Assembly: GCA_007119595.1 (NCBI GenBank)
Contig: SKPJ01000385.1
Span: 1-32,433 of the forward strand
Length of the DNA stretch: 32,433 bases
Source of the DNA: Myxococcales bacterium
GTDB taxonomy: Bacteria; Myxococcota_A; Bradymonadia; Bradymonadales; Bradymonadaceae
Direction: 5' to 3'
The notes below the pieces were generated by a model. It searched no databases. It was not told the origin of the DNA and worked only from the letters and a program-made list of their open reading frames with translations. Below, piece by piece: positions 16,157 through 32,250 of this stretch. Both the position numbers and the translations under genes were made by a program. Position 1 is the first letter of the stretch. Each line of letters begins with the position of its first letter.

Positions 16157-17941
16157 TTGCTTTGGCAAATTCGGGACTCGGAACTTTTGAAACGTCGACG
16201 AAAAGAGTGGATTGTCTATCAAACGCGCCAACAGCGTGAAGACGAATTGGTGCGCGCACTCGACGTACATCCATTGACGGCCCGGATCTTATTGCGGCGA
16301 GGGTTTACGGATCTCGATAGCGCCGAACAATTTCTAAACCCCACTCTGGACCGGATGCACGATCCATTTTTGTTGAAGGGAATGGACTCGGCAGTTCGCG
16401 AGATCTTGACCTCCATCGATCGCGGTGAACGGATCCTGGTTTATGGGGACTACGACGTCGATGGCGTTTGTAGCATCTCGCTGCTCTATCAATTTCTTAA
16501 GCAACTCGGGGCGAGGGTCGATTATTACGTGCCGCTCAGAGATCAGGATGGCTACGGACTCAATTTCGATAATGTCCGAAAGGCCAGCAAGAAGGGATAC
16601 GATCTCGTCGTGACCACCGATTGCGGTGTCTCCAATGTGGAGGAGATCGGATTGGCCAACCAACTCGGTATGCGCGTGGTGGTCGTCGATCACCACACGG
16701 TGCCGGAACAACTTCCCCCGGCGGCGGCGATCTTAAATCCCCTTCAAAAAGATTGTGAATTCCCTTTTGAAGAATTGGCCGCCGTAGGAGTCACCTTTCA
16801 TCTATTGGTGGCGCTTCGGAGCAAATTGCGTGAACACGGCGTATTCGAGCAGATTCCGGAACCGGATCTGAGGGAATATCTGGATCTGGTGGCGCTGGGG
16901 ACGGTGGCCGACGTCGTCCCCCTGATCGACGTCAATCGAACCTTCGTGCGCCATGGCCTGGAAGTTTTGGCGAGCCGTCGGCGGGCTGGCATTTCGGCAT
17001 TGATGGAGCGCGCTCACGTCAATGAGAAGCGGGTCACTCCCGAGACGATCAGCTTTCGGCTGGCTCCCCGGCTCAATGCGGCGGGTCGGATGGGCGATGC
17101 ATCGATCTGCGTGGAGTTGTTGACCACCCATAGTTATGGTCGGGCCATCGAATTGGCACGACGTCTCGAGGAGTTTAACGAACGCCGCCAGGCATGTGAG
17201 CGCGATATTCTGGAGAAGGTGCTGCCCCTGGCCGAGGCGCAATACGAGGCCGGTCGAAAGATGCTGGTGGTCGCCGAGCGCAAGTGGCACCGAGGAGTGT
17301 TGGGGATCGTGGCCAGTCGACTTGTCGAGCGCTACCACCGCCCTGCTGTTCTGGTTGGTATCGACGAGGATGGCGTCGGCAAAGGCAGCGTGCGAAGCAT
17401 CAACGGCATCGACGTCATCGAGCTTCTTCGTTCGAGCTCCGATTTGCTCGAGACCTTCGGAGGACATACCGCTGCTGCTGGACTCTCGGTTCGGGAGACG
17501 AATATCGATGATCTGCGCGACCGGCTCGACGATGCCCTCGGTGCCACCCTCGATGAAAAGGGTCTTCCCCGCCCGCGACTTCAGATCGATTGCGAAGTTG
17601 AGCTCTCCGAACTCGATGTGAGCTTCGGACGTGATCTGACGCGATTGGGCCCTTTCGGAATCGGAAATCGAGAGCCGGTGTTACTCTGTCGTCAAAGCAA
17701 AGCCACCCGTGTTCGAGTGGTCGGAAAAAATCATCTGAAGGCAAAATTTCGAGACGGAAGTGGTTCGCTGGAGGGTATAGGATTTTCTATGGCCGATGAC
17801 CGCCCATTGCTCAATCAGCGTGTGTCGGTGGCCTTTGTTCCGCGCTTTGCCACCTTCCGCGGCCGGACCCGTCTGGAGATGCATATCCGCGGCCTTCGAT
17901 CCTCCGGCGAACACTGTCCCGACCGCATCGAACATCTCTGA
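16157..17941 (+). CDS. recJ: Single-stranded-DNA-specific exonuclease RecJ
   Basis: RecJ is a 5'-to-3' single-strand DNA exonuclease in recombination and mismatch or base-excision repair. All DHH-family motifs are visible: YGDYDVDGVCS near residue 95 (motif I), TTDCGVSN near 153 (II), VVVDHHTVP near 174 (III), LGTVADVVPL near 248 (IV). RLNAAGRMGDAS near 303 follows, and the DHHA1 motif ETFGGHTAAAGLSV is near 431. A C-terminal OB-like domain contains GPFGIGNREPVLL. Length (594) is normal. The start is uncertain: the only upstream choices in this frame are non-ATG, TTG 16157 being the longest, with no good ribosome-binding site; a TTG about ten codons later is also possible. The small membrane gene follows after 15 bases. 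Confidence 0.94.
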   Translation: MLWQIRDSELLKRRRKEWIVYQTRQQREDELVRALDVHPLTARILLRRGFTDLDSAEQFLNPTLDRMHDPFLLKGMDSAVREILTSIDRGERILVYGDYDVDGVCSISLLYQFLKQLGARVDYYVPLRDQDGYGLNFDNVRKASKKGYDLVVTTDCGVSNVEEIGLANQLGMRVVVVDHHTVPEQLPPAAAILNPLQKDCEFPFEELAAVGVTFHLLVALRSKLREHGVFEQIPEPDLREYLDLVALGTVADVVPLIDVNRTFVRHGLEVLASRRRAGISALMERAHVNEKRVTPETISFRLAPRLNAAGRMGDASICVELLTTHSYGRAIELARRLEEFNERRQACERDILEKVLPLAEAQYEAGRKMLVVAERKWHRGVLGIVASRLVERYHRPAVLVGIDEDGVGKGSVRSINGIDVIELLRSSSDLLETFGGHTAAAGLSVRETNIDDLRDRLDDALGATLDEKGLPRPRLQIDCEVELSELDVSFGRDLTRLGPFGIGNREPVLLCRQSKATRVRVVGKNHLKAKFRDGSGSLEGIGFSMADDRPLLNQRVSVAFVPRFATFRGRTRLEMHIRGLRSSGEHCPDRIEHL

Positions 17942-18395: not shown

Positions 18396-18412
18396 CCGGC
18401 GCATTGTGCCGG
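18396..18412 (+). other. GC-rich hairpin in the leader of the DUF3825 gene
   Basis: CCGGC (18396-18400) pairs with GCCGG (18408-18412), loop GCATTGT. A further GGCC pair follows (GGCCGGCGTCTCTGGCC), so the leader can fold into alternative GC-rich structures about 35-50 bases before the start codon. There is no T tract. Confidence 0.35.
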
Positions 18413-18447
18413 GGGGCCGGCGTCTCTGGCCTCCAATAGGGAAAACT

Positions 18448-19215
18448 ATGAATGAGCACTCTTTACCCCCGATTAAAGAATTCGCATTTCTTCCAGATTT
18501 CGCTGATCACCTGGTCGAATTAGAAGAACTAGCGGAGCACGAAGATTGGGAGTACCGCTACACCAAAAGTGATTTTCCACGCCCCATTCTCTACGCCTAC
18601 ATCATCCACACGTTCAATCGGATTGAGGAAGAAGGCAAAATTGCCTTTGCCGCAGACGATCTGGCCGCCTGTTTCAATACGGGCCTGGTGACCGAACAGC
18701 AGGAGCCAATCTTTGCGCTCTTTGATGAGAATAAGATTCCCGAGCGGCAGCCCTGGTATTTTCAGGGCTTTGTTCGCAAAGGCGACGTGCGAATGACGCG
18801 TTTTAGCGAATTGCCGGAGATGGCCAACTACATTGAATGTGCCGAAGATTTCGTCTTCAATCCGGCGATGGAGTTGCGACGTAATGCGGAACATCTGATC
18901 GCTGAAAATCGCGAGCGTTTTCCAGATGACTTCGCCAATTACGGGTCCTTTCAACTCCAGAATCTTCTCTCCGGTGCATTCGAAAATGCAGTACAGCGAG
19001 TGTGCAGAAACTACCGCATCGCCGTACCTCAATATCATCGAGGTCGCGTACAATTGCTCCTCCCTCTCTGCCTTCGGCACCCTTGCGAGCCCGATCTCGC
19101 AGCAGTGATCGAAAGGATGGATGAGTATTATCGCGTCGCCACCTGTCTGACCCTGGACCAAGCCTATAGCAATGCCCGGCTGCTGGGACGGGTGGACGAG
19201 ATCTGGTTGCGCTGA
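18448..19215 (+). CDS. DUF3825 domain-containing protein
   Basis: This is a 255-residue cytoplasmic protein. ATG 18448 is chosen because AGGG lies nine bases upstream and the preceding codons of the ORF-track version look non-coding. The sequence matches the DUF3825 pattern I know: an N-terminal FAFLPDFADHLVELEELAE, a central DLAACFNTGLVTEQQEPIFA, and a C-terminal block CRNYRIAVPQYHRGRVQLLL followed by PLCLR. The family is found in scattered bacteria, sometimes next to RNA-binding or LOTUS-type domains; its activity is not established. No signal peptide, membrane helix or known catalytic triad is seen. It is probably monocistronic and converges with the Rieske gene with a 33-base gap. Confidence 0.82.
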   Translation: MNEHSLPPIKEFAFLPDFADHLVELEELAEHEDWEYRYTKSDFPRPILYAYIIHTFNRIEEEGKIAFAADDLAACFNTGLVTEQQEPIFALFDENKIPERQPWYFQGFVRKGDVRMTRFSELPEMANYIECAEDFVFNPAMELRRNAEHLIAENRERFPDDFANYGSFQLQNLLSGAFENAVQRVCRNYRIAVPQYHRGRVQLLLPLCLRHPCEPDLAAVIERMDEYYRVATCLTLDQAYSNARLLGRVDEIWLR

Positions 19216-19248: not shown

Positions 19249-20814
19249 TCAATAGCCGACGAGTTCGCGAAGGCGCTGTTGATCGCCTTCGGCAAGCGCC
19301 CATTCGGCACGTAGCCCGTCCAGGGATCGTCCAATGGTCGCCACGGCGCGGACCTCACCCTCGCATAAATACCCGATGGTGGCATCCTTATCGCTCACCG
19401 ATCCGTCGACGCTGATCTCGTCGAAATCGGAAGCATGGCCGACATAACGAATGGTCAGGCCAAAATGACGACTCCAGAAAAAGGGGATATCCCGGAAGGA
19501 ATCGGGACCGGTGCCGAGCCAATTGCGGACCGCTGATTGAGCTTGTCTCTGGGCCACGACCCAGTGTTCGATCCGGGTCGGTAATCCCGTGTAGGGGTCG
19601 GGATAGCGCGCGGCGTCACCGACGGCATAGATTGCCGGGTCATTGGTTTGAAAGCCACTGTTGACGACGATGCCCTTGTCGACCTCGAGTCCCGCGGCTT
19701 CGGCGAGCTCGGTGCGCGGGGTGACGCCGACGCCGAGGACGAGGAAATCAAAAGACACTTCGGCATTGCTGCTGAGCCGTGCCGTTCCACCGTCGAGTTC
19801 TTCGAGCTTTGCACCGAGATGAAATTCGATGCCCTTCGACTCGTGGGTGTCCCGTACCAGTGCTCCCACCTCATCACCCAGGACTCTCGCCAGGGGAAGT
19901 GACTCCGGTGCAACCACGGCGACGTGGAGTCCACGTTTTTGAAGTGACGCAGCGACCTCGAGCCCGATAAAGCTCGCTCCGAGCACGAGTGCTCGCTCAG
20001 CACCATCGGCGGCGTCGATGATCGCCCGTGAGTCCTGAAGTGATCGCAATGTGAAGTGAAGTGTGGACTCCAAGCCTCCGATGGGTGGTACGATCGGTTC
20101 GGCTCCAGTTGCAATAAGAAGCCGATCGTAGGAGAGCTCGCGATCGGCTCCGGTAATGACGGTTTGAGCACTGCGGTCAATGGCCGTGACCGAATCACCG
20201 CTGATGAGCTCCACGTCCAGGTCCCGCCAACGCTTTTCACCGCCGAGATAAACCCATTCCTCCGGGGCGTTTCCGGCCAGATAGTCCTTCGATAGATTGG
20301 GGCGATCGACGGGGCCCGATGATTCGCTGCCGACCATGGTGATGGATCCGGAAAAACCCTCCTTGCGAAGGGTCTCGGCGGCTGCCGCACCGGCCGCACC
20401 GGCGCCGATAATGACGATTGCTTCAGCCGGAGTCGGCGCCGTGGATTCACTTTCGTCGTCGGCCAACTCCTCCGATGTGTCCTTGGGAAGCACTCGAAAG
20501 TGAAAGCCATCGATCTCTACGGGATAGCAACCGGTGGCCCCAAAAGCGGGCGCTCCGATCGCCTCTCCGGTTTCGAGATCGAATTGGGCGTGGTGCCAGG
20601 GACAGCGAATGGTCCCGTCGACGACCAATCCCTTCTCCAGTGGTCCCCCGTAATGAGTGCAGCGAGCGCCGATGGCGAATAATTGATCCCTTCGTTTGAC
20701 GACGACCACCGGGTCATCATCGACAACGCCCAAAAAGGGCTTGTTCTCCTCCAACTTCGAGAGTGGAACTCCCTTTGTCAGATCGGGACCGTCTATCTTG
20801 TCTGTCTCGCCCAT
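19249..20814 (-). CDS. Rieske [2Fe-2S]-FAD/NAD(P)H oxidoreductase fusion (AIFM3-like)
   Basis: This is a 521-residue soluble electron-transfer enzyme. Residues ~10-110 are a Rieske domain with cluster ligands C52-T-H54 and C71-P-W-H74 (RCTHYGGPLEKG; RCPWHHAQFD). After an acidic linker the pyridine-nucleotide-disulfide oxidoreductase fold begins: FAD motif VIIGAGAAGAAAAETL near 134, NAD(P)H motif ALVLGASFIGLEVAASL near 290, and second FAD motif YAVGDAARYPDP near 412. The arrangement matches AIFM3-like and ferredoxin-reductase-like fusions. The FAD part usually reduces a ferredoxin or Rieske protein; here the acceptor is built in. The natural electron partner is unknown. GAGGAG lies before the ATG. 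The gene is monocistronic, with no oxygenase beside it. Confidence 0.92.
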   Translation of the reverse strand: MGETDKIDGPDLTKGVPLSKLEENKPFLGVVDDDPVVVVKRRDQLFAIGARCTHYGGPLEKGLVVDGTIRCPWHHAQFDLETGEAIGAPAFGATGCYPVEIDGFHFRVLPKDTSEELADDESESTAPTPAEAIVIIGAGAAGAAAAETLRKEGFSGSITMVGSESSGPVDRPNLSKDYLAGNAPEEWVYLGGEKRWRDLDVELISGDSVTAIDRSAQTVITGADRELSYDRLLIATGAEPIVPPIGGLESTLHFTLRSLQDSRAIIDAADGAERALVLGASFIGLEVAASLQKRGLHVAVVAPESLPLARVLGDEVGALVRDTHESKGIEFHLGAKLEELDGGTARLSSNAEVSFDFLVLGVGVTPRTELAEAAGLEVDKGIVVNSGFQTNDPAIYAVGDAARYPDPYTGLPTRIEHWVVAQRQAQSAVRNWLGTGPDSFRDIPFFWSRHFGLTIRYVGHASDFDEISVDGSVSDKDATIGYLCEGEVRAVATIGRSLDGLRAEWALAEGDQQRLRELVGY

Positions 20815-21050: not shown

Positions 21051-21224
21051 GTGACGCTGATTCGAATCATCCTCTGCTTTATTCTGCCGCCGCTGGCGGT
21101 CTTTTTGACCGTCGGCATTCGGTTTCACTTCTGGCTCAATATCTTGCTGACGCTACTCGGCGTGCTTCCGGGGATGATCCATGCCCTGTGGGTCGTTGCG
21201 CGAAAGACAGACCGGGCGGACTGA
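21051..21224 (+). CDS. YqaE/Pmp3 family membrane protein
   Basis: This is a 57-residue membrane peptide of the Pmp3 (proteolipid membrane potential modulator) family. Starting at GTG 21051 gives the usual 52-57 residue length and begins at the first helix: TLIRIILCFILPPLAVFL, with the family's ILPPLxVFL motif. The second helix contains FWLNILLTLLGVLPGMIHAL, with the second hallmark LGxxPGxIHA. The ORF-track start at 20952 would add 33 residues without a ribosome-binding site. Family members respond to salt, cold or membrane stress in yeast and plants; bacterial roles are less clear. It is divergent from the Rieske gene and lies 306 bases upstream of the glucosylglycerol-phosphate synthase fusion. 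Confidence 0.85.
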   Translation: MTLIRIILCFILPPLAVFLTVGIRFHFWLNILLTLLGVLPGMIHALWVVARKTDRAD

Positions 21225-21530: not shown

Positions 21531-23759
21531 TTGATATTTGCGTTCGACCTGGACGGAACGTTTTTGGGCGGAGATGAGAAATCCCGTCAATTGCTATACG
21601 AGCTCATCGAGGACCGCGAAGATATCCGACTGGTACTGGCGACGGGACGTGGCCTGGAGTCGGTGATGCCTCTGTTGAGTGATCCCACCTTTCCACAGGC
21701 AGATTATATCGTTTCCGATGTGGGAGCGACCGTCGTCGACGGTCAGTCTCTACAGCCGGTGCAGCCTTTGCAGTCGATGATCGCGCAGCGCTGGCCGGGG
21801 ACGTTGGCCGTCGTCCGGGCCTTGAAATCATTCGATTGTCTGGAACGCCAAGACGTACCGCAGGAGCGCCGCTGTTCATTTCTCGCTGAATTCGACGAGA
21901 TCGACGACGAGATGAAAAGGGTCGTCGATGAATTGGGTTGTCAGCTTCTCTTTTCCGCCGATCGCTACGTCGATGTGTTGCCGCCGGGAGTCAACAAGGG
22001 CTCGACGTTGCGGCAATTGGTCAAACACGAAGGTGGCTCGCTGGATGACGTCATCGTCGCCGGCGACACGCTCAACGATCTTTCGATGTACGAAGAGGGC
22101 TTTAAGGGAATCGTGGTGGGCAATGCCGAGCCGTTGCTGAAGCAACGAGTCCGGGAAAACGAGCGGGTGTACCTGGCCGAAGGCCACGGTGCGGAGGGGA
22201 TTCTCGAGGCCTTGGAAAATTTCGAGCCCCTGCGTCGTATCAAGGGACCGGTGCAGGCCGCGGAAGCGGCGTCGGGAGACGCCCAATTGGTCATGGTGTA
22301 TCACCGGCTTCCCTTCGAAGAAGAGCAAAACGATCAAGGGGAGCTGGTGCGCAAGCCACCGAGCAGCCCCAATGGCATCATTCCCACATTATTGGACTTT
22401 TTTCAGAGTGGTTACCGCGGATCTTGGATCGCCTGGTCCCCCCGCGAAAGTCGCGATCCCGAGGGGTTCGAATCCAACGTAAAGCTCGATGACGACAACC
22501 TCAGTGATCTGACGTGTACCCGGATCCCATTGACCAACGACGATGTGGACGTCTTTTATAAGACTTTTTCCAAGGAGGCACTGTGGCCGGTGATCTTTTC
22601 CTTTCCGAGCTACGCATCGTTTGAGCAACAACAATGGGAGCACTACGTCGAGATCAATGAGTTATTTGCCGAGCGAACGGCGACCAGTGCCGAGCACGGA
22701 GCAGTGGTGTGGATCCACGACTATAATCTGTGGCTGGTCCCCGGAATGTTGCGGCGAATGCGTCCCGATCTCAAGATTGCTTTTTTCCATCATACTGCTT
22801 TTCCACCGCCCGATGTGTTCAACATCCTGCCCTGGAGACGGGAGATCATAAGCAGCTTGTTGCAATGTGATTATGTGGGCTTTCATATCCCCCATTACGT
22901 CGAAAACTTCGTGGGTGTCGTTCGCTCCCACGCCTCCTTGGAGGTCTTGGAGCGCCGGCCCTGTGCTCCGCGATTTCTGACCTACGGCTGCGCAATGGGC
23001 ATCGATGAGATGGTCACCCGATTCGAAGTCGGGGGGCGAGAATTGCGCGTCGGCGCCCATCCGGTCGGGATCAACGTCGATCACATCGAGGAGATTTTGC
23101 AGCGCCCGCCGATCACCGCCAAGATCGACGAGATGAACGCTGAGTTTCAGGATCGAACGGCCATCCTGTCAGTGGAGCGATTGGACTACGTCAAAGGACC
23201 GCTGGAGAAGCTGCGTGCATTCGAGCAGTTGCTCGAGGAGCATCCGCAATACCGAGACGAGGTGGTGTTGATGACCATCCACACCCCCCCGGCGGAGGGG
23301 ATGAGCGCCTACGATGAGATCCGAGACGAGGTGGAGCGCGCCGTGGGACGTATCAACGGGCGCTTCGGCACCCTGGAGTGGACACCGGTTCGGTATTTCT
23401 TTCGATCGTTTCCCTTTGAGGAGGTGATCGCCATGTATGCTGCCTGCGACATCGCATGGATTACACCACTTCGCGACGGCCTCAACCTGGTGGCCAAGGA
23501 ATTCGTCGCCACCCAGGGATTGAGCGAAGAAAATGGGGTTTTGATCTTGTCGGAATTCGCAGGGGCAGCCGTGGAGTTGCACGGCGCCCTGTTGACCAAT
23601 CCCTACCACTCGGCGGAGATGGCGAAGGTCCTCCATCGCGCGCTATCGCTCAACGAGGATGAGCGCAGCGTTCGCACGTCCCGGCTCTTCGATATCGTCT
23701 CCTCAAAGGACGTTCATCACTGGGGAGAGCAATTTCTGCAGCAAGCAACAAGTGAGTAA
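21531..23759 (+). CDS. ggpS: HAD phosphatase-glucosylglycerol-phosphate synthase fusion
   Basis: This bifunctional 742-residue enzyme should make glucosylglycerol, a compatible solute. The start is TTG 21531. Residues 1-~240 are a HAD-IIB (sucrose-phosphatase-like) phosphatase with every motif intact: FDLDGT at 5-10, ATGRG at 37-41, lysine in KGSTLRQL and GDTLNDLSMY near 178. From about 265 a GT20 glycosyltransferase follows: VWIHDYNLWLVPGMLRR near 392, FFHHTAFPPPDVFNILPWR, GFHIPHYVENFVGVVRSH, LSVERLDYVKGP, INGRFGTLEWTPVR and ITPLRDGLNLVAKEF near 645. These blocks match glucosylglycerol-phosphate synthase better than trehalose-phosphate synthase (HDYNLW, HTPP). GgpS joins ADP-glucose and glycerol-3-phosphate with retention; the fused phosphatase would remove the phosphate. 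Similar fusions are known in some gammaproteobacteria. The donor sugar cannot be proven. The symporter follows after 61 bases. Confidence 0.88.
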   Translation: MIFAFDLDGTFLGGDEKSRQLLYELIEDREDIRLVLATGRGLESVMPLLSDPTFPQADYIVSDVGATVVDGQSLQPVQPLQSMIAQRWPGTLAVVRALKSFDCLERQDVPQERRCSFLAEFDEIDDEMKRVVDELGCQLLFSADRYVDVLPPGVNKGSTLRQLVKHEGGSLDDVIVAGDTLNDLSMYEEGFKGIVVGNAEPLLKQRVRENERVYLAEGHGAEGILEALENFEPLRRIKGPVQAAEAASGDAQLVMVYHRLPFEEEQNDQGELVRKPPSSPNGIIPTLLDFFQSGYRGSWIAWSPRESRDPEGFESNVKLDDDNLSDLTCTRIPLTNDDVDVFYKTFSKEALWPVIFSFPSYASFEQQQWEHYVEINELFAERTATSAEHGAVVWIHDYNLWLVPGMLRRMRPDLKIAFFHHTAFPPPDVFNILPWRREIISSLLQCDYVGFHIPHYVENFVGVVRSHASLEVLERRPCAPRFLTYGCAMGIDEMVTRFEVGGRELRVGAHPVGINVDHIEEILQRPPITAKIDEMNAEFQDRTAILSVERLDYVKGPLEKLRAFEQLLEEHPQYRDEVVLMTIHTPPAEGMSAYDEIRDEVERAVGRINGRFGTLEWTPVRYFFRSFPFEEVIAMYAACDIAWITPLRDGLNLVAKEFVATQGLSEENGVLILSEFAGAAVELHGALLTNPYHSAEMAKVLHRALSLNEDERSVRTSRLFDIVSSKDVHHWGEQFLQQATSE

Positions 23760-23820
23760 TGGTGCTCGGTGAGAGCTGAACGACGCACCGGATAGCGCTC
23801 GAATTCGATCCGAGGTTGAG

Positions 23821-25731
23821 ATGGAGCCACAGACCGGCCTTCACTTGATCGACTGGGTGATATTGGGAGTGTATCTCCTCTTTGCGCTGGGCGTGGGCTT
23901 CTTTGTGAGGGAATTGGCGCAGACCGACAAGGAGAGCTATTTTCTCGCCGGGCGCTCCCTGCCCTGGTGGTGGGCCGGCGCTTCGATTGCTGCGACGACG
24001 TTTGCCGCCGACACCCCGCTGGTGGTCACCGGAGAAACGGCGGCCCGGGGATTGTCGGGCAATTGGCTGTGGCTGGCCTGGATCGGAGTCCACGCAGGGG
24101 CCTTTGTATTTTTCGCTGCGAAGTGGTCGAAGAGCGGCGTACTGACCGATGCCGAGCTGGTGGAGTTGCGTTATTCGGGGCGCGACGGCCGCGTACTTCG
24201 TAGCACGCGCGCCGTGGTGTACGGGTTGCTCTTCAATGGAATCATCCTCGGCTGGGTCCTGAACGCGATGGTCAAAATCTGCGGGCCCTTCTTCCACTGG
24301 GATCGCTGGCTTCCGACGGTCTACGAGTGGATGGCGACCTGGTGGCCCGCCGGGACAGCGCTGGGAGATCCGTCGGACGGGTTGACCATTTTGGTGTTGC
24401 TCGTATTGGTTGGCATCTACTCCGTATTGGGGGGCATACGGGGTGTCATCTTCACCGATCTCATTCAGTTGACACTCGGACTTGTGGCGAGCTTTTGGTT
24501 TGCCTGGGTGGCCTGGGATGCCGTCGGCGGGCGCGCCGGACTGCACGAGGGACTGGCGGCCCATTACGACGACCCCGAGGAGTATCTCTCCTTTTTTCCA
24601 GAAGTGAGCGTCGAGTGGATCGGCGCCGGTGGCGACTGGGCGGGAATGGAATTGCTGCAGAGTACACCGGTGCTGTTGGCCACCGTTTTTGCCGCCTATT
24701 TGATGGTGCAGTCCTATGCCAACTTCCCGGCCGATGGCGGGGGCTATATGATGCAGCGCCTCAACACGTGCCGCAGTGCCAAGGACGCCCGTCAGGCGTC
24801 GTTATTTTTCATCGTCCTGCAATATATCGTTCGCACCTGGCCGTGGTTCATCGTCGCCCTGGTTGCCCTGGTGATGATTCCCATCGGCGCCGAGCAGCAG
24901 GTCTTCGAGGGGGCGGCGACCGTCGTCGGTGAGGACCGGGAGATGGCCTATCCCGTCTTGATGGACCAATTGTTGATTCCAGGGGTGTTGGGACTTTTGT
25001 TGACCAGTCTGTTGGCGGCGTTCATGAGTACACTGGATACCCATATCAACTGGGGGGCTTCCTACGTGGTCAATGACATCTATTTGTGGGCTGACCCGGA
25101 GGCCACGGATCGACGGCAGATGCTCGTGGCTCGTATCTCGGTGGTGGGGTTTGTAGTGCTCGCCGTAATGATCGCATTTCAGATTGAGACCATCGGCCAG
25201 GCCTGGCGTTGGGTGGCCATCATCGGCGCTGCCCTCGGTATCTCGACGGCGCTTCGGTGGATGTGGTGGCGCATCAACGCCAGTGCCGAGTTGGCGGCGA
25301 TAGGTACCGGCCTGAGTGTGGCCCTGGCACTGCGATTTACGGAGATTCCCTTCGAAATCGAGTTGATCATCATCTCCGTGGGCAGCGTCCTGGGCATGAT
25401 CGCGGGGATGGTGCTGGGGCCCAATCCCGATGACGAGGTTCTGGAGGCTTTTATGGACAAGGTGGAGCCCATCGGGGTGTGGCCCGATCGTTCCCGTGTA
25501 CAGGGGCTGCGTCAGATTGCGGGAAGGCTGGGAATCTGGGTCGCAATTTGCGGCGGTACGGTCGCCGTGCTCGCCGGCTTGCACCAGTGGATTTTGATCG
25601 GAAACGGCGTTGCCGGGGCTCTTCTCATCGTCGGGGGAAGTGCCGGATTGTGGGGCGGAACCCATGTGCTATCGATGGATGAATTGGACCGTGGCGAAGA
25701 AACGAAAACAACACGCGGAGTGACTCGATGA
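23821..25731 (+). CDS. Sodium:solute symporter (SSS family)
   Basis: This 636-residue inner-membrane protein has about 13-15 hydrophobic helices and is a sodium-coupled uptake carrier of the SSS family. GAGG lies five bases before the ATG. The first helix (LIDWVILGVYLLFALGVG) is followed by SYFLAGRSLPWWWAGASI, the conserved family block. YSVLGGIRGVIFTDLIQL is the SSS loop signature. LTSLLAAFMSTLDTHINWGAS carries the Ser-Thr pair of the Na2 site. Substrates of SSS members range from sugars to amino acids, so sequence alone does not tell; the kinase, GH4, deacetylase and SIS genes behind it point to a glycoside or amino sugar. Export of solute is unlikely for this family. It overlaps the kinase gene by four bases. 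Confidence 0.93.
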   Translation: MEPQTGLHLIDWVILGVYLLFALGVGFFVRELAQTDKESYFLAGRSLPWWWAGASIAATTFAADTPLVVTGETAARGLSGNWLWLAWIGVHAGAFVFFAAKWSKSGVLTDAELVELRYSGRDGRVLRSTRAVVYGLLFNGIILGWVLNAMVKICGPFFHWDRWLPTVYEWMATWWPAGTALGDPSDGLTILVLLVLVGIYSVLGGIRGVIFTDLIQLTLGLVASFWFAWVAWDAVGGRAGLHEGLAAHYDDPEEYLSFFPEVSVEWIGAGGDWAGMELLQSTPVLLATVFAAYLMVQSYANFPADGGGYMMQRLNTCRSAKDARQASLFFIVLQYIVRTWPWFIVALVALVMIPIGAEQQVFEGAATVVGEDREMAYPVLMDQLLIPGVLGLLLTSLLAAFMSTLDTHINWGASYVVNDIYLWADPEATDRRQMLVARISVVGFVVLAVMIAFQIETIGQAWRWVAIIGAALGISTALRWMWWRINASAELAAIGTGLSVALALRFTEIPFEIELIIISVGSVLGMIAGMVLGPNPDDEVLEAFMDKVEPIGVWPDRSRVQGLRQIAGRLGIWVAICGGTVAVLAGLHQWILIGNGVAGALLIVGGSAGLWGGTHVLSMDELDRGEETKTTRGVTR

Positions 25732-26642
25732 CCATTGCAAAAAAAGGGTCGAAGTTGGCATCCCGATTTTGCGTGGCGGGCCTCATCTATTTCGAGGTCT
25801 TTCTTCCCCCCGAGGTGTCGGAGATTCCCCAGGGAAAGGAGAGATTCGTCGATGATATCGGTGTGGGCCTAGGCGGAGCGCTCAACCCGGCCTCCGTCGC
25901 ATCGGCACTGGGCGTCGATACCACGGTCGCCCATCCGAGCGGCCGGGGAGCGACGGACGCCGCCGTCCGCGCCGGCCTCCAGCGCCTGGAGATCAGCGCC
26001 AGAACCTGGTCCGTCGAAGACGACCCGGCCATCTCGTTGGTTCGCTCCACGGGGGGCGACCGCGGGTTCATCAGCCGAGCTCTACCGGGCGCGCTGAACG
26101 ACTGCCCTTCGCTGGTTGATTTCGACTGGATTCACGTCCCGGGCCTGAAAGAGGCAGGGGAGCTTCATCGCCATCTCGGGTCGGCGCGAGATGCTGGCGC
26201 CTACGTCAGTGTCGCCGGAAGTTGGGCGCCCGAAAGACTGGATGAATTGAGCGACTACGACTCCTCGATCTGGGACCTGTTGATACTCAACCAAGCCGAG
26301 GCTCGCCGCGCCGTGACTGCCTCACCCGAGTCCAGCGTTGGTTTGTTGCCGCCTCTACGCTGCGCTGCATCTGACATCATCATCACCAACGGCTCGGACC
26401 CGGTCCTCGCTCATATCGATGGTCATCTCCTCGAAGTGCCGGTGCGCCCTGTGGAGCGTTTTGTCGACGCCACCGGTGCCGGCGATGCCTTCGGGGCCGG
26501 TTATATCGCCGGCCGACTATCCGGGTTGAATGCACGACGAGCCATTGAACAAGCCGCGGAGGTCGCGGGCATCGTCGTCGGTTTGCGCGGCGGTGTCGTT
26601 CAAGACCCAACGGTATTCGAAGAGTTGCAAATTCACAGCTAG
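25728..26642 (+). CDS. PfkB-family carbohydrate kinase
   Basis: This 304-residue ribokinase-type kinase has the N-terminal GGALNPASVASALG block near residue 49 (GGxxxN substrate motif) and the C-terminal signature FVDATGAGDAFGAGYIAG near 245, with the catalytic aspartate in GAGDAF. PfkB kinases phosphorylate sugars, sugar phosphates or nucleosides with ATP. The substrate is not readable from the sequence; the first ~45 residues diverge from usual members. The start overlaps the symporter stop as ATGA, so the kinase is probably translated with the transporter and acts on what it imports. The GH4 gene follows after 20 bases. In this setting the kinase replaces PTS phosphorylation, giving the 6-phospho-glycoside that many GH4 enzymes need. 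That order of steps is inference. Confidence 0.88.
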   Translation: MTIAKKGSKLASRFCVAGLIYFEVFLPPEVSEIPQGKERFVDDIGVGLGGALNPASVASALGVDTTVAHPSGRGATDAAVRAGLQRLEISARTWSVEDDPAISLVRSTGGDRGFISRALPGALNDCPSLVDFDWIHVPGLKEAGELHRHLGSARDAGAYVSVAGSWAPERLDELSDYDSSIWDLLILNQAEARRAVTASPESSVGLLPPLRCAASDIIITNGSDPVLAHIDGHLLEVPVRPVERFVDATGAGDAFGAGYIAGRLSGLNARRAIEQAAEVAGIVVGLRGGVVQDPTVFEELQIHS

Positions 26643-26662: not shown

Positions 26663-27952
26663 ATGCTCAAGCATTTTCTCATCGTCGGCGGAGCGAGCGC
26701 CTATACGCCTGGTCTGGTCAAGGCATTGATCGCCGATTGTCATCGCCATGATCTGGAGTTGGTGCGGCTCTACGATATCGCAGATGACCGACTGAAGTTG
26801 GTCGCCAATCTGTGCCGGAAGATGGCACGAGCCGCCGGGGCTCCCTTTGAGGTGGAGGCGACCACCAATCGCCGCGTTGCCGTCCGAGATATCGATATCT
26901 TACTCAACAGCTCCCGTCCGGGAGGATTTGAGTGCCGCAGAAACGACGAAGCGCTTCCCCTGGAGTTCGATGTGCCGGGGCAAGAGACCGTCGGTCCCGG
27001 GGGGTTTTTCTTTGCGATGAGATCGATACCGGCGGCCCTGGAGCTGGCCGATGATGTTGCTCAACAAGCTCCCGATGCCATTTGGCTCAACTACACCAAT
27101 CCCACCAATATCGTCGCCCAGGCGTTGCGCGATCGCACGGAGCTAAATGTCATCGCCCTATGCGATCAATTCGAAGAAGATCTGCACTCTCTGGCCGACG
27201 CCCTCGGCTTTCCGGATGACGTATCCGTCGATTTTTCATGTTCCGGGCTCAATCACGCCACCTGGTATCACAATATCCGGTTCGACGGATCGCCACTGCC
27301 AGACCGCGCCTACGAGGTATCACCACCGGACTATTTCGACGAGGAACACAAGGCGCGATTCGTTCATTGTGCTGAGATGGCAGCCCGTTATGACGGCCGG
27401 TGGCCGAACTCCTATTTGCCCTATTACGAATCGCCGAAGAGCTTCGTGAAGTTGTTGAAGAAGGTAAAACCCCGATCTGAAGTGATACTCGAGGGGTTGG
27501 ATGAGTACTATAGGCATTTCGAAGAAGAATCTCGCCGTGACAAGCCGCAACTCGAGCATCACCGCGGCTCATCGGGATTCGGTGACATGGCGGTCGACGT
27601 CCTGGCGGCCCTATCGTCGGAAGAGCCTGTGGATTTGGTGCTCAATATTCCCAACCGAGGCTTGATTGGAGAATTCGACGATGCCACGGTTGTGGAGTCC
27701 TTCGTCAGCGTAAGCAGCGACGGCGTGGTGCGCACCGCGGCGCCGCCGATACCCCAACGATCGCGGGCTTTATTGAAACAACTCGAGACCTACCAGCGGC
27801 GCACCGCACAAGCAGCGGTCACCGGTCGCTTCAAACAAATGATGGATGCCCTCTCGGCGAACCCGCTCGTCGACAGTTCGACGATGGCCTCCGATATGCT
27901 CGAGCGAGCGCGATCAGCCTACGAAGATTGGATACCCCAACTTTCTCCGTAA
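26663..27952 (+). CDS. Family GH4 glycosidase (6-phospho-glycosidase type)
   Basis: GH4 enzymes cleave glycosides by an NAD+- and Mn2+-dependent oxidation-elimination route. The 429-residue protein has the N-terminal Rossmann motif GGASAYTPGLVKAL, the RPGGFECRRNDEALPLE block, GQETVGPGGFFFAMRSIP, and NYTNPTNIVAQAL. The metal ligands are Cys167 (ALCDQF) and His198 (GLNHATW), 31 residues apart as in B. subtilis GlvA (Cys171/His202). The residue after the cysteine is Asp168. In family knowledge, Asp here marks 6-phospho-alpha-glucosidases (CDMP), Asn 6-phospho-beta-glucosidases (CNVP) and His alpha-galactosidases or glucuronidases. The two residues after it, QF, fit none of these motifs, so specificity may be new. 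The length is normal. Confidence 0.92.
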   Translation: MLKHFLIVGGASAYTPGLVKALIADCHRHDLELVRLYDIADDRLKLVANLCRKMARAAGAPFEVEATTNRRVAVRDIDILLNSSRPGGFECRRNDEALPLEFDVPGQETVGPGGFFFAMRSIPAALELADDVAQQAPDAIWLNYTNPTNIVAQALRDRTELNVIALCDQFEEDLHSLADALGFPDDVSVDFSCSGLNHATWYHNIRFDGSPLPDRAYEVSPPDYFDEEHKARFVHCAEMAARYDGRWPNSYLPYYESPKSFVKLLKKVKPRSEVILEGLDEYYRHFEEESRRDKPQLEHHRGSSGFGDMAVDVLAALSSEEPVDLVLNIPNRGLIGEFDDATVVESFVSVSSDGVVRTAAPPIPQRSRALLKQLETYQRRTAQAAVTGRFKQMMDALSANPLVDSSTMASDMLERARSAYEDWIPQLSP

Positions 27953-27981: not shown

Positions 27982-28830
27982 ATGAAGCCCAAATCTCTTC
28001 ACGATGCGTTCGACTGGTCACAATACGAGAGGGTGGTCGTTCTCTCGCCACATCTCGACGATGCGGCGCTGAGTTGCTTTGGACTGCTCAACGATCTGCG
28101 CGGACAGGTCTCACGCCTTGTGATCACCATTTGCTGCGGCAATCCCGCCCCGGCGCCGGTCTGGGGGGAAGAGGAAAAATTCCGACACAATCCAGATCTC
28201 GACGATTACGGGACACCATCGCAGCGCCGGCTTGAGGATGTGGCGGCCATGAATGCCCTCGGTTGTGATTTCGTTCATCTGGGCTTCGAAGATGGAATCT
28301 ATCGCCGAAGTCCCACTTCCGGAGACTATATCTACCGCACGACCCGCGAGAAATTCGTGCGGCCACGCATTGAAGATGCAAGTCATATTGAAGAGTTGTT
28401 TTTAGTGCTGCGGCGACTCTGCCAGAACATGGGGCGACTTCTCTTGGTGGCGCCGATGTCGATCGGGTACCACGTCGACCACAGCATCACCACGCACAAC
28501 GCTTTGCGACTGGAAAGCGAGGAAGTTGAATTATTGTTCTACGAGGATTTCCCCTATGTGCTCGATCCCAGTTATAGCGCGGGCTTTCAGGATGCTCCGA
28601 AAAAGGCACTGGATCGATTGGGCCTGGTGGAACAGGGCTGTTTTTACGTCGCTTTCGATCCGCAGGACAAGGCGGAGTTGATCCAGCACTATACCAGTCA
28701 GGTGCCCATTTTGTTTGAGGACGACGACAATCTTCGATCCGCCCTGTCGACGCGAACGCATGACGGAGTTGCAGCGGAGTTTTATTGGACGGCCAGGCGT
28801 CGTTCAAAACCGGAACTCGACGACAATTGA
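27982..28830 (+). CDS. PIG-L (LmbE) family deacetylase
   Basis: PIG-L enzymes are zinc deacetylases of N-acetylglucosamine conjugates (GlcNAc-inositol, GlcNAc-malate, diacetylchitobiose). The 282-residue protein has the first zinc motif SPHLDDAALSC at 22-32 (Leu instead of the usual Pro in PHPDD) and the second, YHVDH, with His164, Asp166 and His167. LEDVAAMNALGCDFVHLGFED matches the family's REEE...LG region. FYEDFPYVLDP lies near 189. No signal peptide is present, so it acts in the cytoplasm, after import. The ribosome-binding site is weak. It is 29 bases after the GH4 gene and 26 before the SIS gene. Which acylated sugar it hydrolyses, and whether before or after glycoside cleavage, is unknown. 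Confidence 0.9.
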   Translation: MKPKSLHDAFDWSQYERVVVLSPHLDDAALSCFGLLNDLRGQVSRLVITICCGNPAPAPVWGEEEKFRHNPDLDDYGTPSQRRLEDVAAMNALGCDFVHLGFEDGIYRRSPTSGDYIYRTTREKFVRPRIEDASHIEELFLVLRRLCQNMGRLLLVAPMSIGYHVDHSITTHNALRLESEEVELLFYEDFPYVLDPSYSAGFQDAPKKALDRLGLVEQGCFYVAFDPQDKAELIQHYTSQVPILFEDDDNLRSALSTRTHDGVAAEFYWTARRRSKPELDDN

Positions 28831-28856: not shown

Positions 28857-29894
28857 ATGACGCGCCAGTGGCGTATGACCTGTGAAATCGCTGATCAACC
28901 CGACGTCTTTGAGGCCCGGGCGACCCATTGGATGTCCGCTGCCGAGCCGTTGCGGGAGGTCATTCAACGCCGATCGCGGTTGGCCTTATTGGGTCGGGGC
29001 AGTTCGAAGAATGCCTGTGTATATGCTTCGCTTCTGTACGGTTTGGCCACCGGACAACAGGCAGTTAGATTTCGCCCCTGGCTGACGACCATCGATGTTC
29101 CCAGGGCGGATTGGTCGGATACGGCGGCACTGGTCTTTTCGGCCTCCGGCCAGAGCACCGATATTGCGCGTGCTGCGCAGTGGATCGTCGATCGCGGTGG
29201 ATATACGGTGGGAGTCACCAACGCCGAACGCGGTGAGCCCTGTGCCCTGGAGGAATCGACGGATTCGTTATTGCACCTCGATGTGGGGGACGAGCGTGCC
29301 GTACCAGCGACGAAGAGTTTCAATGCCCAATTGTTGGCCTCGGCGGCGCTGTTGGGGTTTGATGTGGAGGCGGCGATCCCGGAACTGGCTCAATGCCTTC
29401 GTGCTTTAGAGGAACGGGAGGTCGCCAAAGAACTCGCCGATCTCATCGGTGATGCGCGCACGGTGGCCTGGATTGCACGGGGACCGTCGATGGCGGCGGC
29501 CCGCGATGCGGCCCTGAAATGCCGCGAGTGTGCCCGCCTCGACTCTACCGGATGGTCCGCTGCCGAGATTCAACATGGACATATTGGCTCCTTGGATCAT
29601 CGCGATCGAGCGGTGATTTTCTCCGATGCCAACCAGCCCGCCGGTAGCTTCTCTGCCCTCTCGAAGGGGCTGTTGAATCGAAACACCCCATTTGCGGTGA
29701 TCGGACTGGACTACTACCGGGAAAACGGAGCATCGGCAGCGCCGGTGCTGCAACTGGAGTTGCCGCAAAAGCGATGGGCGCGACCGATTGTATTCGCTTA
29801 TCTATCACAACAGGTAGCGTTGGAACTCGCTGTGAGACAAGGCCTCGATCCGGATTATCCAGCAGGGTTACAGAAGGTCACTGAAACCCTGTAG
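28857..29894 (+). CDS. SIS-domain sugar deaminase/isomerase (GlmS-isomerase/NagB-II-like)
   Basis: This 345-residue protein has two SIS domains and resembles the isomerase half of GlmS without the glutaminase half, as in archaeal GlmD and bacterial NagB-II glucosamine-6-phosphate deaminases. ATG 28857 is chosen because GGAGGTG lies seven bases upstream; the ORF-track start at 28785 is inside the PIG-L gene. Signatures: MTCEIADQPDVF near the N-terminus, LLGRGSSKNACVYASLLYG, VFSASGQSTDIARAA, DERAVPATKSFNAQLLASAA in SIS1. SIS2 has IARGPSMAAARDAALKCREC and STGWSAAEIQHGHIGSL. The likely reaction is glucosamine-6-phosphate to fructose-6-phosphate and ammonia. AgaS-type isomerase/deaminase or a deglycase is the alternative. 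It ends the cluster, 40 bases from the convergent lipoprotein gene. Confidence 0.88.
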   Translation: MTRQWRMTCEIADQPDVFEARATHWMSAAEPLREVIQRRSRLALLGRGSSKNACVYASLLYGLATGQQAVRFRPWLTTIDVPRADWSDTAALVFSASGQSTDIARAAQWIVDRGGYTVGVTNAERGEPCALEESTDSLLHLDVGDERAVPATKSFNAQLLASAALLGFDVEAAIPELAQCLRALEEREVAKELADLIGDARTVAWIARGPSMAAARDAALKCRECARLDSTGWSAAEIQHGHIGSLDHRDRAVIFSDANQPAGSFSALSKGLLNRNTPFAVIGLDYYRENGASAAPVLQLELPQKRWARPIVFAYLSQQVALELAVRQGLDPDYPAGLQKVTETL

Positions 29895-29934: not shown

Positions 29935-32250
29935 TCACTGGGTCGGCAATTCGAGGATCTCTTGCTCTGGACCGTCCGGTCCCTTGCCGTTCGAACCTCC
30001 ATCGCCTCCCGAGCCGCTGCGGCCGATGTCAAAGGTGACGTCTTCGGTTTCGATCTCGGCATCGGAATCGTGGAGGATGCCGACGGAGGGACCGCCCTCG
30101 CCGCCGCTGCCTTGACCGCCCTGGCCTCCCGGGCTGCCATCGCCACCGGAGCCGCCATCGTCGGCCGAGAACTCACCCTCGCTCTCCCCTGGGCCACCGG
30201 CGCCACCTTCACCGCCCTGGCCACCTTCACCGCCTTGGCCGCCGTTTCCACCATCGCCTGCGCGTGCGGTCTGGATGCTGGTATCGAGGATGGCTACCGA
30301 CGAGGAGTAGGCGAGGATGCCGATGGAGCCTCCCCCACCGATTCCGCCATAGCCGCCTTCGCCGCCACAGCCACCGAGTCCGCCGGCGCCACCGCCGCCG
30401 CCGTTGAGGTTGTCGCACTCTTCACTCCGGTAACTCCCCGATCCGCCGCCACCGGCGCCGCTGCGACCCGCATCGCCGGGCCCGGCCTGAAGCCCGTCGG
30501 CGCCGCGATACAGCACCTTGGTGACCGGGTCGTCGACGATGAAATGAGCGTCGGAGGTGGTGGCTTCAGCGTCTTCTCCGTCATTGTCGATCTCCGGCGC
30601 GTCGTCCCCATCTCCTGGTTCACTGCCGGCTTTATCGTCATGGGTCGTACAAAATGATTCAACGATCTCACCAATTCCCCCCTCGCCTCCTTGTGTCGTA
30701 GTGCCGCCGACGGTAATGCTCCCTCCGGCAGCTCCATCCCGTAGACTTTCGTCGCCTTGTGGAGGAGTGACACCACCGTCGCCGCCGGCTTGGCCCGGCG
30801 TGGGCCGATCACCACCAAATTCGCAGGAAAGTCCCGAACTGGGCAGCGTTTCCTCAGCGCCCAAACGGGGCTCGTTGTCGGAGGGGGAGTTGCCGTCGAT
30901 ACCGACTTCGCCGGGCTCTCCTTGATCGCCATCGGAGCCGTCCATTCCTCGCCCGGCTTCGATATCGACGTGGGAGACATCGACATGGCCGCTGTTGTTG
31001 AACAGGTAGATCCCGATCGAGGAGCTGGGAGCCGACTTCTGCGGTGGAGGTCCCTGGGTAAAGAATTCGCTGGTGGTGGCATCGCCAGCTTTGATGGTCA
31101 GCAATTGGAGTTCCATATCACCTGAAATACCGGTTATCTGTACCGGTTTGTGTCCGACCGCCATCCCAGTGGTATCGATGATGGTTTCGTGTTGCGGGCC
31201 CCGATCCCATTCACCGGCTCCCTCGTCTCGATACCCCCCGTAAATGCTGACCGCCGAGGTGATTTCAATTCGTTCTTCGTACAGCCCTCCCCCGACGAAT
31301 ACGTTGTCCAGCCCAGGCGTGGTGGTTGCAATATCGACGCCGCGCTGAATAGTTCGGACGGGACGGGCGGGATTGCCGTCATCATTGTCGTCGCCGAAGA
31401 TGGAGACGAATACGGCGGTCGACATATCACCGTCGAGCCCGTCGCAATTTCTATCGGTAAAATTAACGGGGTCCGGCGAATCCTCGTCGCCGCATTCACA
31501 GCCGGTTTCCGGGTCATCATCCTGGGTGGAGAAGCCGGGGTCGCAGGATGTGATGGTGCAGGTGCCGCTGGAATCGCATTCGCCGGTGCCATTTTCGACC
31601 TCGCAGTCGCAGGCCTGGCATTTGTCATCGTCGCCCAAAACAAAGCCGTCGTCGCATTCGCACGTCGTATTTGCACCGTCATCGATGCAGGTTCCACCGT
31701 CTCCGCAATCGATCTCCTCACAACCGGAGACACATTCCGATCCGTGACAGATGTCGTCTCCACTACAGTCATCATTTTCGATGCACTCCACGCAGGATTC
31801 GTTGAGGCAAACTCCGTCGGGGCAATCGGAGTTGTTGACACATTCGACGCATTGAGCGTTATTGCATACTCCATTGGGGCAGTCGCTGTCGCGATCGCAT
31901 TCCACACATTGGGCGTTGACGCATACACCATTGCTGCAATCGGAATCACGATCGCATTCGAAGCACTCGTGGTTGACGCAGACGAAGCTTCCCGAGCAGT
32001 GGATGTCCTCCACGCAGGTAACACATTGCGTCTCATGACAGACCCCGTCAAAACAATGGTCGTCGGTGTCGCACCCCACGCATTGCTGATCGATGCAAAC
32101 TCCCGCTTCACCAGTGCATTCGCCGTCGGCGATACACTCCGCCTCATCGGCGTTGAAATTGGTATCATCGCTTACATTGCACGCCACTATCGCGGCGATG
32201 GTCACGAATACGGTGAAGAGTATTTTGGTCACCAGCCCATCTCGAAACAT
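29935..32250 (-). CDS. Large cysteine-repeat lipoprotein with glycine-rich tail (DUF1565-like core)
   Basis: This is a 771-residue exported protein. ATG 32250 has AGGAG eight bases upstream. The signal peptide ends in a lipobox-like IVAC, giving lipid-anchored Cys24. Residues 39-173 are seven cysteine-rich units (see repeat entry). An EGF-like stretch follows at ~177-211 (TCIDDGANTTCECDDGF), then more paired cysteines to ~253. Residues ~278-430 look like a DUF1565/right-handed beta-helix core: VSIFGDDNDDGNPARPVRTI followed by VFVGGGLYEERIEI and SAVSIYGGY. The rest (~430-771) is Gly-, Asp- and Glu-rich, with collagen-like GGQGGEGGQGGEGGAGG, broken by beta-helix-like stretches (SIGILAYSSSVAILDTSI). 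Such mosaics are common surface proteins of Myxococcota and Bradymonadota; their function is unknown. Strong acidity implies calcium binding or adhesion as guesses only. Confidence 0.85.
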   Translation of the reverse strand: MFRDGLVTKILFTVFVTIAAIVACNVSDDTNFNADEAECIADGECTGEAGVCIDQQCVGCDTDDHCFDGVCHETQCVTCVEDIHCSGSFVCVNHECFECDRDSDCSNGVCVNAQCVECDRDSDCPNGVCNNAQCVECVNNSDCPDGVCLNESCVECIENDDCSGDDICHGSECVSGCEEIDCGDGGTCIDDGANTTCECDDGFVLGDDDKCQACDCEVENGTGECDSSGTCTITSCDPGFSTQDDDPETGCECGDEDSPDPVNFTDRNCDGLDGDMSTAVFVSIFGDDNDDGNPARPVRTIQRGVDIATTTPGLDNVFVGGGLYEERIEITSAVSIYGGYRDEGAGEWDRGPQHETIIDTTGMAVGHKPVQITGISGDMELQLLTIKAGDATTSEFFTQGPPPQKSAPSSSIGIYLFNNSGHVDVSHVDIEAGRGMDGSDGDQGEPGEVGIDGNSPSDNEPRLGAEETLPSSGLSCEFGGDRPTPGQAGGDGGVTPPQGDESLRDGAAGGSITVGGTTTQGGEGGIGEIVESFCTTHDDKAGSEPGDGDDAPEIDNDGEDAEATTSDAHFIVDDPVTKVLYRGADGLQAGPGDAGRSGAGGGGSGSYRSEECDNLNGGGGGAGGLGGCGGEGGYGGIGGGGSIGILAYSSSVAILDTSIQTARAGDGGNGGQGGEGGQGGEGGAGGPGESEGEFSADDGGSGGDGSPGGQGGQGSGGEGGPSVGILHDSDAEIETEDVTFDIGRSGSGGDGGSNGKGPDGPEQEILELPTQ
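31732..32136 (-). repeat. Seven tandem cysteine-rich units coded in the lipoprotein gene
   Basis: Units begin at residues 39, 60, 79, 99, 118, 137 and 156, so the period is 19-21 residues and exactly 19 (57 bases) in the last four. The pattern is C-x5-C-x4-C-x4-C-x2, as in CDRDSDCPNGVCNNAQCVE. Adjacent units 4-6 are nearly identical, which suggests recent duplication and possible length variation between strains. Confidence 0.85.

Follow-up and report, generated by a model that had tools for sequence, protein, structure and literature searches.

A GgpPS-type synthase fusion and five downstream genes as a candidate module for making, recapturing and recycling a compatible solute

Organization of the locus

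The window, that is, the whole 32,433-nucleotide stretch of DNA analysed here, is a contig of a 5.2-Mb draft genome in 614 contigs (G000). It carries a fused synthase gene followed on the same strand by five genes for uptake and sugar metabolism, with a small membrane protein gene upstream:

21051-21224, + strand: Pmp3/YqaE-type small membrane protein, 57 aa, GTG start (Pfam PF01679, 71 bits)
21531-23759, + strand: HAD-GT20 fusion of GgpPS type, TTG start with AAGGAG (Pfam S6PP/HAD and GT20; TIGR02398)
about 21531-22223, + strand: N-terminal S6PP/HAD phosphatase domain of the fusion
about 22287-23747, + strand: C-terminal GT20 domain of the fusion
23821-25731, + strand: SSS (sodium:solute symporter) family transporter, 636 aa (Pfam PF00474; orthologues)
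25728-26642, + strand: PfkB-family sugar kinase, 304 aa (domain match; predicted fold)
26663-27952, + strand: GH4 NAD-type phospho-glycosidase, 429 aa (domain match; catalytic residues)
27982-28830, + strand: PIG-L family de-N-acetylase, 282 aa (PF02585; HxDD and HxDH motifs)
28857-29894, + strand: SIS-domain protein, NagB-II/GlmS isomerase-like, 345 aa, ATG 28857 (domain match; NCBIfam; PDB)

The gaps along the series fusion, SSS, PfkB, GH4, PIG-L and SIS are 61, -4, 20, 29 and 26 bases, the PfkB start overlapping the SSS stop by 4 bases, an operon-like arrangement. An earlier sequence-only reading had placed the fusion 61 bases upstream of the symporter gene on the same strand with no terminator between them, and both the coordinates and a consensus scan, which found no terminator-like site on the + strand of this gap, agree. 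That reading ended at 25731; the cassette extends past this limit through the SIS gene at 29894. A consensus scan of the + strand of the gap, covering the sigma-70 type only, found no sigma-70-like site, which weakly disfavours a promoter belonging to the SSS gene itself. Comparison with Rfam returned no match to an RNA element. The Pmp3/YqaE gene, which falls below the length cut-off of the ORF list, lies 306 bases upstream of the fusion on the same strand and is also present at the corresponding loci of two relatives, G001 and G003, the latter being without the fusion.

The synthase fusion

The fusion lies in a 761-codon open frame that begins with ATG 21474 and ends at 23759. Translation probably starts at TTG 21531 rather than at this ATG, since similarity to the relatives begins there; AAGGAG stands seven bases before it, and the same start had been correctly chosen in the sequence-only reading. 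Pfam places an S6PP/HAD domain at residues 20-250 and a GT20 domain at residues 272-758, so that a HAD phosphatase is N-terminal to GT20 within one protein. Against TIGR02398 (glucosylglycerol-phosphate synthase) the fusion scores 638 bits, above the curated cut-off of 569. It shares with the GgpPS proteins of Stenotrophomonas, Pseudomonas and Marinobacter this domain order, a passing TIGR02398 score and the GgpS-type acceptor signature, which is retained at the positions of E. coli OtsA 40, 132 and 155.

It departs from them in its GT20 domain, which branches as a sister group of the sampled reference GgpS proteins and has five residues changed. In the GT20 tree the sequences from the window, G001, G002 and G144 make up a clade of their own (support 97/97), and six reference GgpS proteins, with no characterised fused GgpPS included among them, make up a separate one (100/99); both stand apart from OtsA. 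Residues F375, A442, V573, T604 and A656 are unique to the fusion's clade among 23 GT20 sequences (19 others compared). A442 lies two residues from the donor-sugar His, and V573 adjoins the donor-site Lys. The donor-site residues themselves match both OtsA and GgpS. Judged from the sequence differences, a shift in donor relative to the reference GgpS proteins is possible. Of a GgpPS one would expect ADP-glucose as donor and glycerol-3-phosphate as acceptor; a glgC gene is found in the window's genome.

Enzymes and transporter encoded downstream

The GH4 protein keeps C167, H198, N146, E108, T109, R92 and R271, the counterparts of those reported for the metal site and -1 subsite of ChbF (PMC13197890). 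Its metal Cys is followed by Asp168 in a CDQ motif, where the Klebsiella 6-P-alpha-glucosidase has CDM and the beta-type ChbF has CNI (Asn173); Asp at this position marks the alpha type and Asn the beta type, placing the cassette enzyme with the former. A GH4 tree agrees, grouping it with the 6-P-alpha enzyme and GH4s of Deinococcus, apart from ChbF (86/86). GT20 enzymes form alpha bonds, made with retention, and an alpha-type GH4 would therefore suit a GT20 product and would suit beta-linked chitobiose poorly. A chitobiose or chitin route is likewise disfavoured by the alpha-type residue together with the failure to find a GH18 chitinase in five genomes of the genus, all incomplete.

The PIG-L protein has the PIG-L fold, and the HxDD and HxDH zinc motifs are kept in four members. 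Its nearest folds are the teicoplanin, chitobiose, BshB and MshB deacetylases, and in both sequence and fold it is nearest to N-acyl-glucosamine deacetylases. The best NCBIfam match of the SIS protein is NF046059 (NagB-II), at 102 bits and thus short of the cut-off of 430; among PDB chains it comes nearest to a GlcN-6-P deaminase, and overall it is closest to NagB-II/GlmS. No NagA or NagB above the cut-off was found in the same five incomplete genomes. The nearest relatives of the GH4 outside the cassette type are four GH4s on Deinococcus plasmids (33-35% identity), each followed by a gene for a GlcN-6-P deaminase (annotated as a 6-phosphogluconolactonase in one record) and one for a BadF-type kinase. 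Taken together, the PIG-L and SIS proteins, the failure to find NagA or NagB and the neighbours of the Deinococcus GH4s point to an amino sugar as a putative substrate of the cassette. The remaining two proteins are less specific: a fold search with the PfkB model recovered PfkB/ribokinase sugar kinases in general with no hint of the substrate, and the segments of the symporter that align with vSGLT assign no sugar to it.

Conservation among relatives

Orthologues were counted in 379 genomes of the phylum, the relatives all being draft genomes, 77-95% complete. In two members of the window's genus the fusion and SSS genes remain adjacent, separated by 57 bp in G001 and by about 150 bp in G002. 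G001 keeps the entire six-gene array, and G002 has the fusion, SSS and PfkB genes on one contig and the SIS gene on another. Synteny of the six genes within the genus proves little when taken alone, since the flanking genes (DUF3825, RecJ, Rieske reductase and Cys-rich protein) are syntenic in G001 too.

The same six genes are also found, rearranged, in G144, which belongs to a different family in the phylum, with identities of 52/59% (HAD/GT20), 54% (SSS), 34% (PfkB), 51% (GH4), 50% (PIG-L) and 43% (SIS). One contig of this genome has the order SIS-PIG-L-GH4-PfkB, with a HAD domain divergent from PfkB and running off the contig end, while a second contig opens with the GT20 half and has the SSS gene one nucleotide later. 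The contig ends do not overlap and the missing stretch is a few residues only; we infer that the HAD and GT20 halves are one fused gene. Although this is the only six-gene occurrence found outside the genus, recurrence in another layout argues for a link beyond shared neighbourhood, and there is good support for a functional connection among the six genes.

Single-gene distributions are similarly narrow. Of the 379 genomes, just four (G000, G001, G002 and G144) have a symporter orthologue scoring over 1000 bits; the next match scores 524 bits, and such second-tier SSS genes stand away from every cassette gene. PIG-L of the cassette type is confined to G000, G001, G003 and G144 in the same set, with no further member among the 52 genomes of G144's class. 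GT20 proteins above the GgpS cut-off occur in seven genomes (G000, G001, G002, G144, G203, G346 and G377). A search of public genome contigs with a two-row GH4 alignment returned only G001 and an unrelated GH4 from Verrucomicrobia at 25%, and for plasmid matches to GT20 and PIG-L the six-gene cluster was absent from the annotated records opened.

The sequence-only reading had held that loss of the fusion from the locus in close relatives would count against a connection. One relative, G003, does lack it, with only the PIG-L and SIS genes whole, yet G001 and G002 keep it. In G003 (L042, 13938-15061) the SSS gene runs directly into the second half of the GH4 gene, with in-frame stops, a joint that reflects either a deletion scar or an assembly fault, and PfkB was not found at the locus. 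With SSS and GH4 broken and PfkB missing from view, the cassette there had decayed as well as losing the fusion. G003 was considered as proof that PIG-L and SIS are independent of the other genes and set aside, as the losses may be recent. Neither the GH4 nor the PIG-L gene of the cassette was found in G004. In G041 (L106, 4102-6281) PfkB and GH4 genes of the cassette's type form a pair by themselves, with no fusion, SSS, PIG-L or SIS gene on the stretch read.

Comparison with known systems

The sequence-only reading considered a biosynthetic enzyme at the head of a catabolic set unexpected, a view that published loci do not bear out. In Marinobacter, 17-76 bp separate ggpPS from the glucosylglycerol-degrading ggp downstream of it, and cyanobacterial gghA is often close to ggpS (PMC10873239). 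The Marinobacter pair resembles the window's locus in having a GgpPS gene directly upstream of breakdown or uptake genes (61 bp in the window) and differs in its parts: a GH13_18 phosphorylase there, and SSS, PfkB, GH4, PIG-L and SIS here, with no GH13 among the genes downstream of the window's fusion. In Synechocystis, leaked glucosylglycerol is recaptured by GgtABCD, and ggpS, gghA (Slr1670) and GgtABCD together serve to make, recapture and break down a single solute (PMC5002435), by means of an ABC importer and a GH hydrolase rather than a symporter and a phospho-glycosidase. Among the reference GgpS loci, those of Dinoroseobacter, Falsirhodobacter and Tistrella carry a glycerol-3-phosphate dehydrogenase gene, and the GgpS locus of G203 has an overlapping sugar ABC importer. 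A synthase beside a breakdown gene is thus already established, and the window's set joins known roles with different parts.

The closest parallel to the amino-sugar part is the E. coli chb operon (chbBCARFG), where a GH4 and a deacetylase jointly process a phosphorylated disaccharide of amino sugars; the order of deacetylase, then GH4, is known for ChbG and ChbF (PMC13197890). Uptake in that system is by a PTS, in contrast to SSS and PfkB here, and ChbG is of the YdjC type, whereas the window encodes PIG-L; neither a PTS importer nor a YdjC-type deacetylase is part of the window's cassette. The two GH4s also differ at the residue after the metal Cys (Asn173 in ChbF, Asp168 here). The Deinococcus plasmid sets share a GH4 beside a kinase and a deaminase, but have an ABC importer, a deaminase of NagB fold and no GT20 or PIG-L.

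A proposed solute module and its alternatives

The reading that best accommodates these observations, to which we assign a probability of roughly 55%, is that the six genes form one compatible-solute module that makes, recaptures and recycles its product. In this scheme the substrates, without exception, and the direction in which the pathway runs are our interpretation of the observed domains, gene order, catalytic residues and co-conservation. The GT20 domain would join a nucleotide-sugar to glycerol-3-phosphate with retention of the alpha bond, and the fusion's own HAD domain would remove the phosphate to give an alpha-glycosylglycerol. The symporter would recapture leaked solute or import it. 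When demand for the solute ends, PfkB would phosphorylate the sugar and the alpha-type GH4 would split the phospho-glycoside; if the sugar is N-acetylglucosamine, PIG-L would de-N-acetylate it and the SIS protein would deaminate it to fructose-6-phosphate. The solute would be either glucosylglycerol or its N-acetylglucosaminyl analogue. Several points count against such a module: the set was found only once outside the genus, in a draft genome with the fusion split between contigs; the symporter's sequence assigns it no sugar; an ordinary glucosylglycerol would leave PIG-L and SIS without a role; and the pair in G041 indicates that PfkB and GH4 serve elsewhere too.

Three options had been offered in the sequence-only reading. 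Recycling of the fusion's own solute is the best fit, because the GH4 is of the alpha type and published GgpS and GgpPS loci carry degradation or uptake genes. Synthesis of an amino-sugar analogue would explain PIG-L and SIS, and the GT20 domain has its sister-clade position and changed residues beside the donor site. A shared salt-stress promoter as the sole connection is weakened by the reappearance of all six genes, differently arranged into operons, in a distant family and by the restriction of SSS and PIG-L orthologues to the fusion's genus and G144.

The amino-sugar form of the module can be put forward only tentatively. Here the GgpS-derived fusion would use an N-acetylglucosamine donor to make alpha-N-acetylglucosaminylglycerol, and the five downstream genes would serve to take it back up and convert it to fructose-6-phosphate and ammonia, the solute doubling as a nitrogen store. 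If this is true, alpha-N-acetylglucosaminylglycerol would be an undescribed amino-sugar compatible solute, and should PIG-L and SIS act on the fusion's product the result would be a salt protectant with an amino sugar; a literature search turned up none. More generally, breakdown of glucosylglycerol-type solutes in heterotrophs is represented by one proposed phosphorylase pathway, that of Marinobacter, to which the window's set would add a second, chemically different route of uptake, kinase and NAD-type phospho-glycosidase beside its own synthase. Expression and assay of all six genes in laboratory strains is feasible, which opens the question to direct test.

It is unlikely, if worth serious consideration, that the roles are split: the fusion would make ordinary glucosylglycerol, SSS, PfkB and GH4 would recapture it and degrade it via the 6-phosphate, and PIG-L and SIS would act on an amino sugar of separate origin, such as one released in cell-wall turnover or obtained from prey. 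The passing TIGR02398 score and the acceptor signature are consistent with this, as are the lone PfkB-GH4 pair in G041 and the state of G003, where PIG-L and SIS are intact, with PIG-L under the same constraint, despite the loss or breakage of the fusion, SSS and GH4. However, PIG-L and SIS share a transcription unit with PfkB-GH4 in G144 too, a GH4 beside a GlcN-6-P deaminase recurs in Deinococcus, and the GH4 remnant of G003 is barely relaxed, so that the losses there may be recent.

A somewhat less probable alternative still is scavenging, in which the symporter would import an external alpha-linked amino-sugar glycoside, PfkB, PIG-L, GH4 and SIS would convert it to fructose-6-phosphate, and the fusion would be linked to them only through shifts in salt or feeding. 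The enzyme set parallels the chb logic, in which the GH4 ChbF needs prior deacetylation by ChbG (PMC13197890), and the GH4-deaminase-kinase sets of Deinococcus are similar. Such a scheme does not account for the constant pairing of the fusion with SSS, from which it is a single nucleotide away in G144, and it is further disfavoured by the alpha-type GH4 residue and by the failure to find a GH18 chitinase in the five incomplete genomes of the genus. That the six are chance neighbours co-inherited inside one genus is very improbable, for while the flanking genes are syntenic in G001 as well, the six are together in G144 in another order and orientation.

Flanking genes

Several neighbours of the cassette have features of their own. 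Downstream, at 29935-32250 on the - strand, is a gene for a protein of 771 aa that looks secreted and matches no Pfam family. It has Cys-rich CDRDSDCxNGVC repeats in tandem, and its C-terminal half is rich in Gly; a diverged copy adjoins the cassette in G001 and G003. Upstream, a Rieske ferredoxin domain is fused to a ferredoxin reductase-like FAD oxidoreductase (19249-20814, - strand) in a gene that is kept in G001 and missing at the decayed G003 locus. The DUF3825 protein gene (18406-19215, + strand) adjoins RecJ (16157-17941) and is 80-86% identical in G001 and G003.
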